DNA of 64,000 nt, from the NCBI GenBank assembly GCA_029851125.1, contig CP100319.1, forward strand, positions 139,762 to 203,761, written 5' to 3'. The position numbers and the translations under genes were made by a program. The notes under the pieces are model-generated. The model had not been told where the DNA came from and searched no databases. It saw only the letters and a program-made list of their open reading frames with translations. This stretch comes from Candidatus Bostrichicola ureolyticus. GTDB lineage: Bacteria; Bacteroidota; Bacteroidia; Flavobacteriales; Blattabacteriaceae. Shown here in pieces: positions 6,901 through 28,622 of the stretch. How positions within the stretch are numbered: the stretch's first letter is position 1; each line of letters opens with the position of its first letter.

Positions 6901-9267
6901 TTATCTATCTATCATAAAATGTAGTTTATAATTTGAATTATCAAATCCATATCCTATATCAATTCCTAAAATACCAATATAAGGAATAAATATCCTAAAA
7001 CCAGTACCAATAGATTTTTTTAAATCTAAAGGATTATAATTTTTAATATTAGAATATATATTTCCAGCTTCTAAAAATCCTAATATACCCATTTTAATTG
7101 GTTGATTAAAAAATGGATTTTTAATAAAAAATGGATAAATAATTTCAATAAAAATTTTATTTTTAATAAAATCAGAATTAGAATCATAACCTCTAATATT
7201 TAAAATAAAATTATTAATATTAATAGGAAATCTATAATTTTTATTTGTATAGTTTCCTAAAATTCCAAATTCTATTCCAATTTTTGCAATCAAATTATTA
7301 AATATTTCTTTATACAAAAATCCTGATAATTCTATTTTATAATATTCAAATAATTCTAAAGTTTTTTTAAAATAAGGTAAAGTAAATATTGTATTTATAT
7401 TAAATACTGAACCAGTTTTAGGATAAAAAAAATGTTTTTGTGGTAAAGAATTAGCATTATATATAAAATTATAATTTATATCAACTCCATTATTATATAT
7501 ATAATAGTTAATAAATGATTTAATATTAAAATTATTAATTATTTTATTTATTCCTATAGAAAATCCTATATTATATTTATTTTCTTTATTTTCTTTATTA
7601 TCATCCAAAGATAAATATTTTTTTATATTATTTTTAATATTATAAATATTATTTATCTGATTATATATAAATTTATTAAAAATATTATCTTTATAAGAAT
7701 CATCATATTTTAAATTATTTGAAATAATTTTTTGATTTTTCAAATCAATATTTATTAATAATGAAGTATTATTTATTAATGGTTTAATAAATAAAATTCC
7801 TATATTTTGAATATTTAATCCTAATTTTGTATTTAATGATAAATATTCTCCACTTCCAATAGGATTTATAGGATTTCGAAATTTATCTAAAATAGAAAAA
7901 TTATAAATGTTATAAACTATATTAAATACCAATTTATCATCAATTATTGACGAATTTAAAAAAATTTTATTATTATTTAATTCTGATATTTTCCATTCTA
8001 AATCTACAGTATTATTACTATTTAATTTTAACTCATTCTTAGCTTTAAGATAACCTAAATTAGAAAGTCTAATTATAGTATTTTCAATTTCTTTTTTAGA
8101 AAAAACTTTTCCTGGATATGTAGTTATTTCATTAATAATAATATTATCTTTAGTTTTTAAATTTCCTGAAAATTTTACTTTATTTAAAATAATTATTGGA
8201 CCTTCATATATATATACATATAAATCAATTTGATTATTTTTTTTTATAACTTTTTCATTTATTTTAATTTTAAAAAATAAATAACCTTTATCTAAATAAA
8301 AAGAACTAATATTATCTATAATAATCTTATTAATATCAATTAAATTATTTTTTCTTTTTAAAAAAGAAAATTTATTATTTAAAAAATTTGAATCAAATAT
8401 TTTATTACCTTTAAAAAAAATATTTCTTAAAAAGAATTTCTCCCCTTCATAAAGTTTAATATATAATATATAATTATTATTTTTAGTTTTAAAAAATTTT
8501 TCTTTTATAATTTTGGCATTTATAAAACCTAAAGATTTATAATAATTAATTATATTATATTTATTTAAGTAATAAATTACTTTATTAATTTCTAGATTTT
8601 TTTTATATAAAAAAGAAATTAATTTATTATAAGAAATATTTTTATTTCCTTCAAATATTATATTTGTTATCTTATTTTTTATATTATTTCTATTTAATAT
8701 AGAAATATGCAAATCATTTTTAATAATAGTAAATATTATATATATATTATATATTCCTTTTTTTATGAAAAAATTTTTAATATTATTTTTAATATCTATA
8801 ATTAAATTATCATTTAATAATATTCCATTTTTTATATAATAATATTTATTATATTTTTTAATTAATGTATTAAAATTTTTTTTAAAATAAGATATATTTA
8901 TACCTTTTATATTTATATTTTCAATTAAAGGCCAATTTTTTAATTTAAAAAATAAAATAATTTTATTATTTTTTATATTAAAAATATATAAATGCATTTC
9001 TTTAAATGCAGAATTATATTTAGTTATAATAGTATTTATTTTATATTTAGATATATTATCTCCAATTTTTAATTTAAAAAATTTTAATAAATCTTTTTTA
9101 TTTCCTATATTAAATATAATATCTTTTATAATAAAATTATTGTTATTATTAAATATATCTATTGATTTTTTTTCAACATTTATTGAATATTTTGATTTGG
9201 CTGATTCAGCATGTATAAAAAAAGATGTAAGTAATAAAAATATAAATAAAACTGTATATTTTTTCAT
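6901..9267 (-). CDS. bamA: Outer membrane assembly factor BamA
   Basis: A 788-residue Omp85-family protein: signal peptide (MKKYTVLFIFLLLTSFFIHA), repeated POTRA-like segments over about the first 400 residues (for example GNKNISYNKLISFL, GNKIFDSNFL), then a beta-barrel ending GIDIGYGFDN...LHFMIDR. The barrel loop has RGYDSNSDF in place of the VRGF motif. BamA folds beta-barrels into the outer membrane. The protein is extremely rich in Asn, Ile and Lys because of AT bias. It lies between fabF and the skp gene. Confidence 0.93.
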   Translation of the reverse strand: MKKYTVLFIFLLLTSFFIHAESAKSKYSINVEKKSIDIFNNNNNFIIKDIIFNIGNKKDLLKFFKLKIGDNISKYKINTIITKYNSAFKEMHLYIFNIKNNKIILFFKLKNWPLIENINIKGINISYFKKNFNTLIKKYNKYYYIKNGILLNDNLIIDIKNNIKNFFIKKGIYNIYIIFTIIKNDLHISILNRNNIKNKITNIIFEGNKNISYNKLISFLYKKNLEINKVIYYLNKYNIINYYKSLGFINAKIIKEKFFKTKNNNYILYIKLYEGEKFFLRNIFFKGNKIFDSNFLNNKFSFLKRKNNLIDINKIIIDNISSFYLDKGYLFFKIKINEKVIKKNNQIDLYVYIYEGPIIILNKVKFSGNLKTKDNIIINEITTYPGKVFSKKEIENTIIRLSNLGYLKAKNELKLNSNNTVDLEWKISELNNNKIFLNSSIIDDKLVFNIVYNIYNFSILDKFRNPINPIGSGEYLSLNTKLGLNIQNIGILFIKPLINNTSLLINIDLKNQKIISNNLKYDDSYKDNIFNKFIYNQINNIYNIKNNIKKYLSLDDNKENKENKYNIGFSIGINKIINNFNIKSFINYYIYNNGVDINYNFIYNANSLPQKHFFYPKTGSVFNINTIFTLPYFKKTLELFEYYKIELSGFLYKEIFNNLIAKIGIEFGILGNYTNKNYRFPININNFILNIRGYDSNSDFIKNKIFIEIIYPFFIKNPFFNQPIKMGILGFLEAGNIYSNIKNYNPLDLKKSIGTGFRIFIPYIGILGIDIGYGFDNSNYKLHFMIDR

Positions 9268-17886: not shown

Positions 17887-19176
17887 TTGATTAATTATTT
17901 TATTTACATTATAATATTATTATTATTATCGGCTATAATATCCGCTTCTGAAATAGCATTTTTTTCTCTTAATAAAAAACAACTTGAAAAAGAGAAAAAA
18001 AAAGATCTTACTAAAGCTAATATTGTAATAAATATTATTAATAATAGGAAAAAACTTTTAGCTGCTCTTATTATATCACATAATTTTTTAAATATTGGAA
18101 TAGTTATATTTTCTTCTTATTTAATAAATAAATATTTTACTTTTCCAGATATAAATATTTATATATTTAAATATAAAATATTTTTTTCTTTAAAATTTTT
18201 ATTTGAAGTAGTAGGAATAACTTTTATATTACTTTTATTTGTAGAAATAATACCTAAAATATATGCTAGTCTTGATAATTTCAAATTAGCTGTATTTATG
18301 TCAAAACCTATTCATATTATTATGATATTATTAAATCCTTTAATATATATTATGATGATAATATCAAATTATATAGAAAAATGGATAGGTAAAAAACAAA
18401 ATAAACTTTCTTTATATCAACTTTCACAAGCTTTAAAAATTACTATAAATAAAAAATATGATAAAGATATACTATTTCTTAGAAAAATAGTTCATTTTGG
18501 AAATATTGAAACACGTCAGATAATGACTCCACGTATAGATATTTTTGCTTTAAATTATAATACTTATTATGCTGATGTACTAAAAATAATTATATCAGAA
18601 GGATATTCTCGTGTTCCTGTTTATAAAGAAAATATTGACAATATTGTTGGTATTTTATTTGTTAAAGACCTTTTACCATTTATTAATGAAATAAATTATA
18701 ATTGGAATCAACTGATACATTTACCTTTTTTTATACCCGAAAATAAAAAATTAGACGATCTATTAAAAGATTTTAAAGATAAAAAAATTCATTTAGCTAT
18801 TGTTGTTGATGAATATGGAGGTACTTGTGGATTAGTCACATTTGAAGATGTAATTGAAGAAATTATAGGTGATATAAAAGATGAATATGATGAAGAAAAT
18901 ATTTCTTATTTTAAAGAAGAATACAATAATAAGTATATTTTTGATGGTAAAATATCATTAATAGATTTTTATCGTTTTATGCAAATAAAAGAAGAAGAAG
19001 AAGATATATTTGAAAAATATAAAGGAAATGCAGATACTTTAGGAGGTTTTGTAATGCAACTAAACAAAAAATTTCCAATAATAAAACAACAAATAAATTT
19101 TTTTAATTATACATTTATAATCAAAGAAGTTGATAAAAAAAGAATAAAAAGTATAGAAGTAATTAGAAAAACTTAA
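17887..19176 (+). CDS. CNNM/CBS-domain membrane protein, GldE-like
   Basis: A 429-residue inner-membrane protein. It has a DUF21/CNNM domain with several membrane spans (residues 1-165), two CBS motifs (RQIMTPRIDIFALN and LAIVVDEYGGTCGLVTFEDVIEEIIGDI) and a C-terminal CorC/HlyC-type domain ending near 425. Related proteins are divalent-cation transporters; in Flavobacterium the relative GldE is linked to gliding. The start codon is TTG at 17887; no upstream ATG fits. Gliding is not expected in an endosymbiont, so an ion-transport role is more likely. Confidence 0.83.
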   Translation: MINYFIYIIILLLLSAIISASEIAFFSLNKKQLEKEKKKDLTKANIVINIINNRKKLLAALIISHNFLNIGIVIFSSYLINKYFTFPDINIYIFKYKIFFSLKFLFEVVGITFILLLFVEIIPKIYASLDNFKLAVFMSKPIHIIMILLNPLIYIMMIISNYIEKWIGKKQNKLSLYQLSQALKITINKKYDKDILFLRKIVHFGNIETRQIMTPRIDIFALNYNTYYADVLKIIISEGYSRVPVYKENIDNIVGILFVKDLLPFINEINYNWNQLIHLPFFIPENKKLDDLLKDFKDKKIHLAIVVDEYGGTCGLVTFEDVIEEIIGDIKDEYDEENISYFKEEYNNKYIFDGKISLIDFYRFMQIKEEEEDIFEKYKGNADTLGGFVMQLNKKFPIIKQQINFFNYTFIIKEVDKKRIKSIEVIRKT

Positions 19177-21913: not shown

Positions 21914-22209
21914 AAGTAGGTATATAAGCCGGATTCTGTATTTATTATAAATCTTTATCATTTATCTAGGATAATAGTTACCTATTATCTCAAACTGCCT
22001 ACCCTCCGATAATATACGAGCAATATAATAATCGGTATATTTGGCATTTCACCACGTAGAGTTTACCTGATTTCACTACAGCCTAACTGTACTTTCTTTC
22101 TGTTGCACTAGTCATCACCTTACGGTGTACGGGCGTTACCCGTTACGTTGCTCTATGGTGTCCGGACTTTCCTCATCATTATAATATGACGCGATAAAGT
22201 TACCTACTT
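21914..22209 (-). ncRNA. rnpB: RNase P RNA
   Basis: On the minus strand the ends AAGTAGGTA and TACCTACTT form helix P1. The conserved core GAGGAAAGTCCGGAC lies near 22158-22175, ACAGAAAG follows, and GGTAAACTCTACGTGG plus GGAGGGTAGGC lie in the 3' half. RNase P removes tRNA 5' leaders. The protein subunit gene rnpA is far away (51030). The first nine or so bases of this RNA overlap the last codons and stop of phoH. Confidence 0.94.
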
Positions 22210-23138
22210 AATTTTAAATAAGCATTAATAATTTTATTTACTAAATAATGACGTAAAATATCATTTTCATTAAAAAATATAAATTTTATACCATTTATAT
22301 TATTTAGTATATTCATTACTTCTAATAATCCTGATCTATTATTATTAGGTAAATCAATTTGACCAGGATCTCCATTTATTATAAATTTAGCATTTTTTCC
22401 CATACGAGTTAAAAACATTTTCATTTGAACATTAGTAGTATTTTGTGCTTCGTCTAATATAACAAAAGCATTATCTAATGTACGTCCACGCATAAAAGCT
22501 AAAGGGGCAATTTCAATAATTCTTTTATCAAAAAATTCAATTAATTTTTCATATTTAATCATTTTATTTAAAGCTTGATAAATAGGTTGCAAATATGGGT
22601 TAAATTTTTCTTTAAGATCTCCAGGAAGAAAACCCAAACTTTCTCCTACTTCTATTGCAGGTCTTGTTAGTATAATACGTTCTACATTTTTATTTTTTAA
22701 AGCTTTAACGGCTAAAGCAACACTAATATATGTTTTTCCTGTTCCTGATGGACCAATAGCAAAAACTAGATCATTTTTTTTAATAGCTTCTACTAAAGCT
22801 AATTGATTTTTTGTTTTAGGAATAATTGGATTACCAATAGTACTATAAATAATAGATTTAGGATTTTTTTCTAAAAAAAAATCATTTTTAGATAAAATAA
22901 TTTCTTCAACATTATTTTTATTTAAATAACCATATTTATTTAAATATTTAATTAAAAGATTTATTTTATTATTAAATAATAATAATATATTATTATTTCC
23001 TATAGCTTTTAATTCATAATCTTTTGCAATAATTTTTATTTGTGGAAAATAAGAAATAATAATTTCCAAATTATTATTATTTTCTCCATAAAAATCTTTA
23101 ATAGAAAAACCAGATAAATTAATTGTTAATTCATTCAA
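22200..23138 (-). CDS. phoH: PhoH-like ATPase
   Basis: A 312-residue PhoH/YbeZ-family P-loop ATPase. Walker A is GPSGTGKT in FAIGPSGTGKTYISVALA; Walker B is FVILDEAQNT. The N-terminal 100 residues form the usual PhoH lead domain. PhoH-like proteins are linked to RNA metabolism and ribosome maturation with YbeY. Its last codons overlap the 5' end of RNase P RNA. It lies 23 bases downstream of murB on the same strand. Confidence 0.95.
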   Translation of the reverse strand: MNELTINLSGFSIKDFYGENNNNLEIIISYFPQIKIIAKDYELKAIGNNNILLLFNNKINLLIKYLNKYGYLNKNNVEEIILSKNDFFLEKNPKSIIYSTIGNPIIPKTKNQLALVEAIKKNDLVFAIGPSGTGKTYISVALAVKALKNKNVERIILTRPAIEVGESLGFLPGDLKEKFNPYLQPIYQALNKMIKYEKLIEFFDKRIIEIAPLAFMRGRTLDNAFVILDEAQNTTNVQMKMFLTRMGKNAKFIINGDPGQIDLPNNNRSGLLEVMNILNNINGIKFIFFNENDILRHYLVNKIINAYLKLSR

Positions 23139-23161
23139 TATAAAATATAATTTATTTTAAT

Positions 23162-24181
23162 TTAAACAATTATAACTTCCCTATCAAGAATAATTCCAAA
23201 TTTTTTATTAACATCATCAATTATTCTTTTTGAGAAAGTATAAATATCAATACCATTAGTTGTTCCATAATTAACTATTATATTAGAAGATTTATTATAT
23301 ATTCCTACATTACCAATTCTTTTTCCTTTCCAACCTGATTTTTCTATTAACCAACCAGCAGATAATTTTACTAAATTTTTAGAAAAAAAATATCCAATAA
23401 TATTAGGATATTTTTCTATTAAAAAATTATAATAATTATTATTAATAATTGGATTTTTAAAAAAACTTCCACAATTTCCAATTTTAATTGGATTTGGAAT
23501 TTTATTGGTCCGTATATTTATTATTGCTTGGGTTATGTTTTTAAGTGTAGGTTTAATAATTTTCATTTTTTCTAATTCTTCTATTACTTCTTTATATAAA
23601 AGATTGAATTTTTTCTTTTTTTTTCTTAAAAAAAAATATATAAATAATATAACATATTTATTTTTTAATTTATTTTTAAATATAGAATTACGATAATTTA
23701 ATTCACATTCTTTTTTAGAAAAAAAAACTATTTTTCCAGTTTTAATTTCATATGCATATAATCCTATTAATATATCTTTAATTTCTACTCCATAAGCACC
23801 TATATTTTGTATAGATGCAGCACCTACAGTACCAGGAATTAAAGATAAATTCTCTAATCCACTAAATCCTTGGTTAACATTCCAAATTACAAAATTTGTC
23901 CAAGATTCACCTGCAAAACTTGCTATAATAACATGATATGAATATTCTTTAATAATAAATTTACCTTTTAAATTTAATTTAATTATTAAACCATTAAAAT
24001 CTTTTACAAATAAAGTATTACTTCCATTTCCTAAAATAAATTTAGGTAAATATTTAAATTTTTTACATTGAAAAATAAATTTTAAACTTTTTAAAGTATT
24101 AATTTTTATAAAAAAATTAGTTTTTGCATTTATTTTAAATGTATTAAAATCTTTTAAATTAAAATTTTTTCTAAAATTCAT
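23162..24181 (-). CDS. murB: UDP-N-acetylenolpyruvoylglucosamine reductase
   Basis: A 339-residue FAD enzyme that reduces UDP-GlcNAc-enolpyruvate to UDP-MurNAc in peptidoglycan synthesis. FAD-binding segments ILGNGSNTLF and NLSLIPGTVGAASIQNIGAYG are visible, with the catalytic serine segment IGNCGSFFKNP. It is of the E. coli-like longer type. Its ATG (24181-24179) overlaps by two bases the ATG of the divergent murF (24180), leaving no intergenic promoter space. Confidence 0.97.
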   Translation of the reverse strand: MNFRKNFNLKDFNTFKINAKTNFFIKINTLKSLKFIFQCKKFKYLPKFILGNGSNTLFVKDFNGLIIKLNLKGKFIIKEYSYHVIIASFAGESWTNFVIWNVNQGFSGLENLSLIPGTVGAASIQNIGAYGVEIKDILIGLYAYEIKTGKIVFFSKKECELNYRNSIFKNKLKNKYVILFIYFFLRKKKKKFNLLYKEVIEELEKMKIIKPTLKNITQAIINIRTNKIPNPIKIGNCGSFFKNPIINNNYYNFLIEKYPNIIGYFFSKNLVKLSAGWLIEKSGWKGKRIGNVGIYNKSSNIIVNYGTTNGIDIYTFSKRIIDDVNKKFGIILDREVIIV

Positions 24182-25469
24182 GAATATTAAAAACTTATAT
24201 AAACAATATCTTATTAGTTCAGGAGTGTCTATAGATACTAGACAATCTATAAAAAATAAGTTATTTTTTGCAATAAAGGGAAAAGTTTATGATGGAAATT
24301 GTTTTGCAAATGATGCTATTTTAAAAGGAGCCTCAGCAGCAGTAATTGATAATAAAAAATATTATTTACCAAAAAAAAAAATGTATTTAGTAAATAATAG
24401 TTTAATTGCTTTACAAGAATTAGCTGTTTTTCACAGAAAAAAATTTAATATACCTTTTATAGCCATTACAGGAAGTAATGGAAAAACTACTACTAAAGAA
24501 TTACTATATACTATATTATCTACTCAGTATAAAACATTTGCCACAAAAAATAATTTAAATAATCATATAGGTGTACCTTTAACTATACTTTCTATTCCTT
24601 TAGATACTCAAATCGTTATCATAGAAATAGCTAGTAATTATAAAGGAGAAATAAAATTTTTATGTGAATTAGTTCAACCAAATTATGGATATATTACTAA
24701 TTTTGGGTATGCTCATCTGGAAGGCTTTAATAATTTAGAAGGAGTTATTAATGAAAAGTCAGAATTATATTTATATATAAAACGCTATGGTAATATTGTT
24801 TTTATTAATGCTGATGATCCTTTGCAAATACAAAAAAGTTTAGGAATAAATACATATCAATTTTCTACAACAAATAAAAATTATAATTTATATATTAAAC
24901 CAATATATAAATATAATACTATAAGTTTTTTTTTTAAAAAACAATTAATTTATCCCAATCTTTGGGGAAGATATAATATTACTAATATATCTGCAGCTAT
25001 TACTATAGCTTATTATTTTAATATTTCTATAAATAATATTATTAATTCTCTAGAAAAATTTCAAACAATAAATAATCGTTCTCAAATTATAATAAAAAAA
25101 CAACTATATATTATACTTGATGCTTATAATGCTAATCCTAGTAGTATGAAAGAATCTATTAACAATATTAATTTTTTAAATTTAAACATTAAAAAAATAG
25201 CTATACTAGGAGATATGTTAGAATTAGGAAATAATAATATGCATTATATGCATGAATATATTGCCAATATAGCTATTGAAAGCAATATAGATTTTATATT
25301 TTTAATAGGACATTGGTTTAATAAGATTAATATTTATAGTAAAAAAATTAAAAAATTTGAAAATAAAAAAAAATTACTTGTTTATTTAAAAAATAATATT
25401 TCCATAGGAATACTTTTAATAAAAGGTTCTCGTAAAATGAGTTTAGAAAATATTGTTAATTATTTATAA
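24180..25469 (+). CDS. murF: UDP-MurNAc-tripeptide--D-alanyl-D-alanine ligase
   Basis: A 429-residue Mur ligase with the ATP-binding loop ITGSNGKTTTKE, the central ligase domain (NNLNNHIGVPLTIL, IEIASN) and a C-terminal domain (LDAYNANPSSM, ILGDMLELG). It adds D-Ala-D-Ala to the cytoplasmic peptidoglycan precursor. Together with murB it shows that at least part of the wall pathway is retained. It ends one base before the end of the convergent ureC. The start overlaps murB's. Confidence 0.97.
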   Translation: MNIKNLYKQYLISSGVSIDTRQSIKNKLFFAIKGKVYDGNCFANDAILKGASAAVIDNKKYYLPKKKMYLVNNSLIALQELAVFHRKKFNIPFIAITGSNGKTTTKELLYTILSTQYKTFATKNNLNNHIGVPLTILSIPLDTQIVIIEIASNYKGEIKFLCELVQPNYGYITNFGYAHLEGFNNLEGVINEKSELYLYIKRYGNIVFINADDPLQIQKSLGINTYQFSTTNKNYNLYIKPIYKYNTISFFFKKQLIYPNLWGRYNITNISAAITIAYYFNISINNIINSLEKFQTINNRSQIIIKKQLYIILDAYNANPSSMKESINNINFLNLNIKKIAILGDMLELGNNNMHYMHEYIANIAIESNIDFIFLIGHWFNKINIYSKKIKKFENKKKLLVYLKNNISIGILLIKGSRKMSLENIVNYL

Positions 25470-25470
25470 A

Positions 25471-27180
25471 TTAAAATAAATAATATCTTTGTGTTAATGG
25501 TAATTTATTTGATGGATTAGATACAATTTTTTCATTATTTATATATACAACATGTGTTTTAGGATCTACTTCTATTATTGGTATTTCATTATTTAATATT
25601 AGATCTTTTTTAGAAATATTTCTACAATTATTTACTGATTTAATTTGTTTTTTTATATTTAAATTATAAATATTTCCAGTTTCTATAGAAATTTTTGATA
25701 CAAAAATAGCACTTAACTCAGGATTATTATATCCAAACATAGTACGATACATAAATGGTTGAGTAGTAGAAATTGCTGCATTAGGATCTCCTATAATAGC
25801 ATCTATTATCATTCCACTCTTTAATACTAAATCCGGTTTAGTACCAAAAAATGATGGCTTCCATATAACTAAATCAGCCATTTTCCCAACTTCAATTGAT
25901 CCTACATAATCAGATATACCATGTGTAATTGCAGGATTAATAGTATATTTAGCTATATAACGTTTTACCCTAAAATTATCATTATCATCATTATAGTTAT
26001 TTAATAATATACCATATTCTTCTTTCATTTTATCTGCTGTTTGCCATGTTCTCCGTATAACTTCTCCAATTCTACCCATAGCTTGAGAATCTGAATTAAT
26101 AATACTAATAGCACCTAAATCATGTAATATACCTTCAGCCATTATAGTATTCTTTCTAATACGAGATTTTGCAAATGCAATATCTTCATCTATTTTATTA
26201 TCTAAATGATGACACATCATTAACATATCAAAATGCTCATCTATAGTATTTATAGTATAAGGCATAGTTGGAGTAGTAGATGATGGTAAAACATTACTAT
26301 TAGTAATAATTTTAATTACATCTGGAGAATGTCCTCCACCAGCTCCTTCTACATGATATGCATGAATTGTACGATTATTAATAGATTTAATTGTATCTTC
26401 TATATATCCAGATTCATTCAAAGTATCTGTATGAATATTAACTTGTACATCATATTTTTCAGCAATGTTTAAACAATTATTAATTACATCAGGTGTACTT
26501 CCCCAATCTTCATGAATTTTTAATGCTCCTGCTCCTGATTCTATTTGTTCTATTAAAGATTTTGTTCCAGAACTATTTCCACTACCAAGAAATAAAAAAT
26601 TAATTGGTATATTATCTGTAGCTTTTATCATTGATTGTATATTCCATATACCTCTTGTACAATTAGTTGCTAAAGTTCCAGTAGTAGGACCTGATCCACC
26701 ACCAATAATAGTAGTTGTGCCATTTTCAATAGCAACCTTAAAAATTTGGGGACATATATTATGGACATGACTATCTATACATCCAGCAGTAACTATTTTA
26801 TTTTCAGCAGATATAATTTCTGTCCCTACTCCAATATACATTCCATGTTTTACTCCTTCCATTGTAATAGGATTACCAGCTTTACCTATTCCAGTAATAA
26901 ATCCATCTTTAATACTAATATCAGCTTTAATTATTCCCCAAGTATCAATAATTATAGCATTTGTTATTACTAAATCAGCTACTCCATCATTCCTACTGGC
27001 AATAGGATGTTGTCCCATTCCACTTCTAATAACTTTTCCACTACCAAACATACATTCCTCTCCATATATAGTATGATCTTTTTCAATTTTTATCCATAAA
27101 GAAGTATCTCCTAAACGTATTTTATCTCCTACTGTAGGCCCATACATACTAGTATATATTTTTCTATTAATTTTTTTCAT
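25471..27180 (-). CDS. ureC: Urease alpha subunit
   Basis: A 569-residue catalytic subunit that hydrolyses urea to ammonia and carbamate. Nickel-ligand and active-site features: CIDSHVHNICPQ (HxH; the third position is Asn-Ile-Cys rather than Phe-Ile-Cys), GALKIHEDWG (carbamylated Lys), VNIHTDTLNESG, HAYHVEGAGGGHSPD and the mobile-flap segment MMCHHLD. All are intact, so the protein should be active if nickel is loaded. Urease in an insect endosymbiont points to nitrogen recycling. The accessory genes ureDEFG are not in this window. It follows ureAB by 6 bases. Confidence 0.97.
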   Translation of the reverse strand: MKKINRKIYTSMYGPTVGDKIRLGDTSLWIKIEKDHTIYGEECMFGSGKVIRSGMGQHPIASRNDGVADLVITNAIIIDTWGIIKADISIKDGFITGIGKAGNPITMEGVKHGMYIGVGTEIISAENKIVTAGCIDSHVHNICPQIFKVAIENGTTTIIGGGSGPTTGTLATNCTRGIWNIQSMIKATDNIPINFLFLGSGNSSGTKSLIEQIESGAGALKIHEDWGSTPDVINNCLNIAEKYDVQVNIHTDTLNESGYIEDTIKSINNRTIHAYHVEGAGGGHSPDVIKIITNSNVLPSSTTPTMPYTINTIDEHFDMLMMCHHLDNKIDEDIAFAKSRIRKNTIMAEGILHDLGAISIINSDSQAMGRIGEVIRRTWQTADKMKEEYGILLNNYNDDNDNFRVKRYIAKYTINPAITHGISDYVGSIEVGKMADLVIWKPSFFGTKPDLVLKSGMIIDAIIGDPNAAISTTQPFMYRTMFGYNNPELSAIFVSKISIETGNIYNLNIKKQIKSVNNCRNISKKDLILNNEIPIIEVDPKTHVVYINNEKIVSNPSNKLPLTQRYYLF

Positions 27181-27186
27181 TATTTT

Positions 27187-27774
27187 TTATAATTTATTAT
27201 AATATTCTATTAATGTTACTTCTTTTGTTTCACCAGGTTCTATACGTATAGATGTTCCAGAAGGAATGTATAAACGATAATTCTTTGTTCCTTCACGATT
27301 AAATTTTAAATATGAATTAACTTTATAAAAATTAAAATGTGATCCTATTTGAATAGGTTTTGTTCCAGTATTTGTAACTTTTCTTATAATTTTTTTTCTA
27401 GTTGATAGATAAGTAATATCATTTTCAGATAATAAATATTCTCCAGCTATAATTTTTTCATTATTACTTTGTATAGGTATAGGATTACGTATAGTCACTA
27501 ATTTAGTTCCATCTGGAAATGTTGCTTCTACTTGTACTTTATCAATCATTTCTGGAACACCAGAAATTACTTGATTATAAGTAATAAGATTTTTAACATT
27601 ATTAATAATATTTTCAATAGTTTTTCCTTCTCTTGCACATTCTAATATATAACATGTTATTAATGCTACACATTCAGGATAATTAAGTTTTATACCTCTA
27701 TTTAAACGTTTTTGTGCTAATTCTCCTGCTAAAAAAATAAAAAGTTTTTCTTTTTCATAAAAAGTTAAATGCAT
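27187..27774 (-). CDS. ureAB: Urease gamma-beta fusion subunit
   Basis: A 195-residue fusion. Residues 1 to about 100 are the gamma subunit ([47 protein letters not shown]). Residues from about 105 to the end are the beta subunit ([51 protein letters not shown]). The two are separate proteins in many bacteria and fused in a few lineages such as Helicobacter, where the fusion is called UreA. It is first in a two-gene unit with ureC. Immediately upstream lies the large AT-only spacer, which must hold its promoter. Confidence 0.96.
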
Positions 27775-27811
27775 ATTTGTTTTATATAAAATTTTATTAA
27801 AAAATATATAT

Positions 27812-28055
27812 TATTATTTATATTATATTATTATAATATTATTTATATTAATAATATATTAAATATTATTAATTTTATTTTTTTATTTAAAAAATATATT
27901 TATTATTTATTTTATTATTATTTATTTATTTAAAAATAAACAATATTATTTATATTATATTATTATAATATTATTTATATTAATAATATATTAAATATTA
28001 TTAATTTTATTTTTTTATTTAAAAAATATATTTATTATTTATTTTATTATTATTT
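27812..28055 (+). repeat. 112-base direct repeat (two exact copies)
   Basis: Positions 27812-27923 and 27944-28055 are identical by eye, separated by 20 bases (132-base period). The units contain only A and T. Confidence 0.9.
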
Positions 28056-28149
28056 TTTTATTTTTTTTTTTTTTTTATATATATTTTTTATATATTATAT
28101 ATATAATATATATATAAAATATATATATATATATTTTTTATAAAAAAAA

Positions 28150-28207
28150 AATAAAAATAAATATATATATTTTTGTTAAAACAAAAATATATATATTTAT
28201 TTTTATT
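28150..28207. repeat. 58-base perfect palindrome
   Basis: The arms 28150-28177 and 28180-28207 are perfect reverse complements of 28 bases with a two-base AA centre. It could extrude as a cruciform or form a long RNA hairpin on either strand. Confidence 0.9.
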
Positions 28208-28622
28208 ATTAAATAATAAAAAATATATATATATATATTTTATATTATTATAATTATTATAATTTATTATTATTTAATAATAAATAAAATATATTTAATA
28301 ATAATAAATTATATTTAATAAGAATATTAAAATTAATAATAATATTATTAATTTTAATAAAAAATATTTAATGTTTGTTTTAAACATATTTTATATATAT
28401 ATTATATATATTATATTATTTGTTTTAAACATTTTATTAAAAATTTAATAAAAATTAAAAAATAATAAAGATTTTATATAATCTTTATATATATTATTAT
28501 AATATAAATATTATATATATAAAAATTTAATTATTTATTAATAAATAATTGAATTATTATATTTGAACGTATTTTTTTATATTATATTATTATAAAAATT
28601 TATTTTATTATAAAAATTATAA

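Follow-up and report, generated by a model that had tools for sequence, protein, structure and literature searches.

Overlapping start codons of the divergent murB and murF genes in a reduced Bostrichicola genome

Divergent genes whose coding sequences share bases at their 5' ends account for 457 of 42,055 well-characterised gene overlaps in prokaryotes (~1%; PMC2478687), number two in E. coli (PMC4161906) and are strongly under-represented (PMC2174442). Other described systems that come close to such an arrangement are bacterial bidirectional promoters, in which one short AT-rich stretch drives transcription both ways (PMC12825309, PMC10268837); the excludon, in which divergent genes have overlapping 5' leaders, one of them a long antisense leader, and are expressed in a mutually exclusive manner (PMC7154746); and the non-contiguous operon, such as menE-menC-MW1733-ytkD of S. 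aureus, in which a single opposite-strand gene lies within a co-oriented run (PMC7154746). Here we describe the junction between murB and murF in a stretch of 64,000 nucleotides (the window; 22% GC and 94% coding) from the genome of Candidatus Bostrichicola ureolyticus (344,793 bp in one contig). This species, a member of the Bacteroidota, lives as an endosymbiont in bostrichid beetles and has genomes of ~337.5 kb and 22.4% GC (PMC10284843). The junction is a fresh example of a rare but already known type of gene overlap. It differs from other short divergent overlaps in being backed by a near-overlap in a sister genome and by homology of both starts, and in that murB and murF serve one pathway.

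Our analysis showed that the opposed ATG codons of murB and murF are read from a single CATG and overlap by two bases, with zero intergenic DNA between the genes (Table 1). Both points had been made in an initial annotation of this DNA and are borne out, and its remark that overlapping divergent starts are rare agrees with the published counts given above. The genes were named with Pfam and NCBIfam models at curated cut-offs, and the matches lie above cut-off for MurB (NF000755, E = 3.8e-110; TIGR00179, 9.5e-61) as well as for MurF (TIGR01143, 4.2e-107). The two-base overlap is real: it joins two genuine genes on opposite strands, whose 5' ends share bases with both starts correctly placed. 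When all CATG sites of the window were compared, this one alone opened long ORFs in both directions: the shorter of the two has 339 codons, against 32 at the next best site. The surrounding perfect palindrome, ATTCATGAAT, arises because MurB and MurF both open with Met-Asn (ATG AAT). With two copies of this 10-mer in the window and four of its core TTCATGAA, the palindrome is unremarkable in itself, and the idea that it serves as a binding site was rejected because the two ATG-AAT starts suffice to produce it.

Table 1. Features at and around the murB-murF junction (window coordinates).
Feature	Position	Strand	Remarks
phoH-like gene	22200..23138	-	downstream of murB, same strand
murB, UDP-N-acetylmuramate dehydrogenase	23162..24181	-	339 aa; ATG 24181-24179; profile matches, conserved N-terminus
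10-bp palindrome ATTCATGAAT	24176..24185		formed by two Met-Asn starts
Bases common to the opposed murB and murF start codons	24180..24181		n = 2, inside CATG 24179-24182
murF, UDP-MurNAc-tripeptide--D-Ala-D-Ala ligase	24180..25469	+	429 aa; ATG 24180-24182; profile matches, conserved N-terminus
ureC, urease alpha subunit	25471..27180	-	convergent with murF, 1-nt gap; possible read-through source for murB
Urease small-subunit ORF, gamma/beta type	27187..27774	-	upstream of ureC; named by eye from translation

It could be argued that one of the two starts is misassigned and that a normal gap separates the genes, as one survey explained every divergent overlap longer than 60 bp in this way (PMC2478687) and codon 16 of murF is a GTG. 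The overlap here is 2 bp and not a long extension, and both N-termini, when aligned with relatives as had been proposed along with the initial annotation, matched from residue 1: MurB begins with MNFRKNFNLKDFNTF here and with MFIKKNFSLKKFNTF in Blattabacterium-like genomes, and MurF with MNIKNLYKQYLISSG here and with MNIKNIYKLYMISSG or MNIQNIYQLYSISSG in those genomes. We use this term for the 600-kb members of the same family, which we take to be close to Blattabacterium. In addition, the first 80 codons of murB contain no further ATG, GTG or TTG, and the other possible starts in the same part of murF are limited to GTG16 and ATG68, either of which would cost the protein conserved N-terminal residues. 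As far as the sequence can tell, both starts are well supported, and a misassignment is extremely improbable.

The sister genome compared (CP100318, our G001; Candidatus Bostrichicola ureolyticus isolate LBRU2) keeps the gene order and the divergent murB-murF pair. Its junction TTCATAATGAATATT (CAT-A-ATG, gap of +1) is separated from that of the window TTCATGAATATT (CATG, overlap of -2) by a 3-nt indel, with both ATGs intact in each genome, and the sister counterpart of the palindrome reads ATTCAT-A-ATGAAT. In this check of junction conservation, also suggested at the outset, the sister genes abut but do not show the 2-bp overlap itself; the near-identical sister junction supports a genuine gene arrangement. 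The other relatives in which both genes occur carry them unlinked, either at a great distance from each other or on separate contigs (the positions in G013 are 273 kb and 536 kb), so among the genomes searched the head-to-head adjacency is specific to the genus. In one Blattabacterium-like genome, murF is preceded by a co-oriented diadenylate-cyclase-like gene (named by eye from its translation), and murB is found elsewhere with a 51-bp divergent spacer. The idea that GldJ originally stood upstream of murF was rejected, as its model found none in four genomes and the ORF at this place in the genome just mentioned is diadenylate-cyclase-like instead. In the Blattabacterium-like genome G009 (C1:542906-544191; L025, L031), murF is split between two matches that overlap in different frames, with a TAA in frame, and is probably a frameshifted copy.

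The sister murB is frameshifted at about codon 185 by a 1-nt deletion in an A-run (L036 8543-9552; window match 23600-23660), and the frame after this point is mostly conserved; recent decay, an assembly error and transcriptional slippage are all possible explanations. The frameshift is in line with a decaying mur pathway. The sister also lacks murG and an intact murC, and its junction is kept, indicating that the layout outlives the pathway. The window genome has both murG and murC above cut-off. Complete peptidoglycan genes have been described for symbionts of Dinoderinae, and loss of murC, murD and murG for the symbiont of Lyctus brunneus (PMC10284843); given this difference in murG and murC, the window genome probably derives from a Dinoderus symbiont. 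A separate window ORF (6901-9267) has 39% identity to its sister counterpart, compared with 75-95% for most neighbours, and may be either a fast-evolving or a decaying gene.

We then placed the junction among the intergenic gaps of this genome, using the window and six other 20-kb stretches (184 kb in total). Genes in the six stretches were called automatically, as tRNAs and ATG ORFs of 80 codons or more, and single gaps there are therefore approximate. Gaps between divergent genes (n = 25) were -2, 6, 32, 34 and up to 848 bp, and murB/murF was the only divergent pair with a gap of 1 bp or less. Among convergent pairs of the same sample (n = 26), 16 had gaps of 1 bp or less, and the two distributions differ (Mann-Whitney p = 8e-7). 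The second-tightest divergent pair consists of a class-V aminotransferase gene and a YidC-like gene, 6 bp apart (stretch L067 4923-7697).

With a probability of about 0.8, we regard murB and murF as a real abutting divergent pair that has lost all of its spacer in a strongly reduced endosymbiont genome. The high coding density of the window and the median convergent gap of -2 bp support compaction; what counts against compaction alone is that a gap, with a median of 76 bp, normally separates divergent pairs in this genome. In the Bostrichicola lineage, a rearrangement would have set the two genes head to head, and a deletion would have taken away the spacer between them. The junction is probably an extreme, neutral outcome of genome compaction, and any short 5' leaders complementary to each other would have come about incidentally and not as a selected regulatory mechanism. 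While the overlap alone reveals no new mechanism, it is a clean, homology-backed case of a reduced genome losing an entire divergent spacer, and offers a small, testable case of the limits of compaction in bacteria independent of Shine-Dalgarno sequences.

With the whole spacer lost, coding sequence must house one promoter or both. The initial annotation had placed each promoter inside the other gene unless one mRNA was leaderless. For murF the first part of this claim stands: there is zero spacer and, to the left, the closest gene on the plus strand ends at 19176, ~5 kb away, so its promoter must sit within murB, probably in the 5' part. The second part does not, as a leaderless mRNA brings no exemption. 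For murB, these alternatives omit read-through: the gene may be transcribed from a promoter in the 5' part of murF, or it could ride on the minus-strand transcript of the urease unit. Antisense pairs of murB and murF transcripts, also foreseen in the initial annotation, would arise only if leaders are present. Flavobacterial mRNAs usually carry leaders (in F. psychrophilum the median is 24 nt, and 5.5% are leaderless; PMC9723704), and by analogy murB and murF probably have overlapping 5' leaders, each a few tens of bases long. Promoter searches gave no excess of sigma-70-like promoters (21 sites, compared with 27 expected by shuffling), and the best match to the Bacteroidetes motif TTG-N17-23-TAnnTTTG upstream of both genes (7/9) is the same as the top score typical of random 250-bp stretches.

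Translation starting from inside another gene would be easy in this lineage, because SD-like 4-mers precede 2 of 51 ATG starts and Bacteroidetes initiate without a Shine-Dalgarno sequence, with little secondary structure and an A at -3 being favoured (PMC6847099). Folding around both starts is weak (-1.9 and -0.7 kcal/mol, with a window mean of -3.5), and such an unstructured, A/T-rich context may be why a start within the other gene is tolerated. The base at -3 is T at both window starts and A at both sister starts; we speculate that the T might reduce initiation of murB and murF here.

A different view of the junction is that selection maintains it as a means of reciprocal control, with expression of murB and murF coupled through overlapping 5' leaders or a bidirectional promoter. 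Their common pathway, the palindromic junction and the near-zero spacing in two genomes would fit such a role. However, the palindrome is accounted for by the two ATG-AAT starts, promoter motifs are not in excess, and the layout is kept in the sister despite its broken murB. Synonymous positions near the junction also show no excess conservation in either gene, in a low-power comparison with one sister whose pathway is decaying: identity to the sister is 28/34 in the first 40 codons of murF and 250/303 in the rest (p = 1.0), and 29/31 and 118/131, respectively, in murB (p = 0.74). Moreover, overlapping ATGs leave a single core promoter no room upstream of both starts. A bidirectional promoter has one symmetrical core between and upstream of both genes; murB/murF has none, because there is zero DNA between the starts and a core upstream of one gene would be coding sequence of the other. 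The likeness to an excludon is that leaders of the divergent genes, if present, would necessarily be complementary, whereas the synonymous-site and promoter-motif searches gave no sequence support for the long antisense leader and mutually exclusive expression of that system. As they rely on a single sister under relaxed selection, these tests of regulatory elements have little force: a selected device gains no support from them, but is not disproved either. A designed antisense regulatory device is thus unsupported by the sequence, and we rate reciprocal control as very improbable.

The layout can also be read in a manner resembling a non-contiguous operon, in which a minus-strand transcript starting upstream of the urease genes would run antisense through murF into murB and phoH, so that the murF mRNA would be antisense to the middle of a long minus-strand transcript. 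Indeed, murF lies alone on the plus strand, flanked by ureC and murB on the minus strand with junctions of 1 nt and -2 nt, and is thus an opposite-strand gene inside a co-oriented run, an architecture documented for the S. aureus men genes (PMC7154746); in the sister, the ends of murF and ureC overlap by 9 bp. A search of 23100-25500 for terminator-like sites found none, although this is weak evidence, given that such sites are rare at this composition (0.2 expected by shuffling). A long transcript of this kind would also expose murF to polymerase collision. In contrast to the S. aureus operon, the urease genes and murB are functionally unrelated, and the arrangement is known here from gene layout. 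This operon-like reading is unlikely, and more doubtful still is its boldest form, in which a non-contiguous operon would tie nitrogen recycling and cell-wall synthesis together in a minimal symbiont genome. Loss of the murB-murF spacer through compaction remains our preferred reading.

Two further observations concern this neighbourhood. A partial match to class A RNase P RNA lies at window 22000-22210 on the minus strand, directly 3' of phoH. The largest divergent gap in the sample, 848 bp at window 27775-28622, stretches from the urease genes to tRNA-Met; it has no ORF longer than 30 aa and contains AT-rich tandem repeats, and at the same place in the sister (L036 13149-14573) lies a 59-bp tandem array containing GCGAACGCG, whose ~11 copies are 99% alike.
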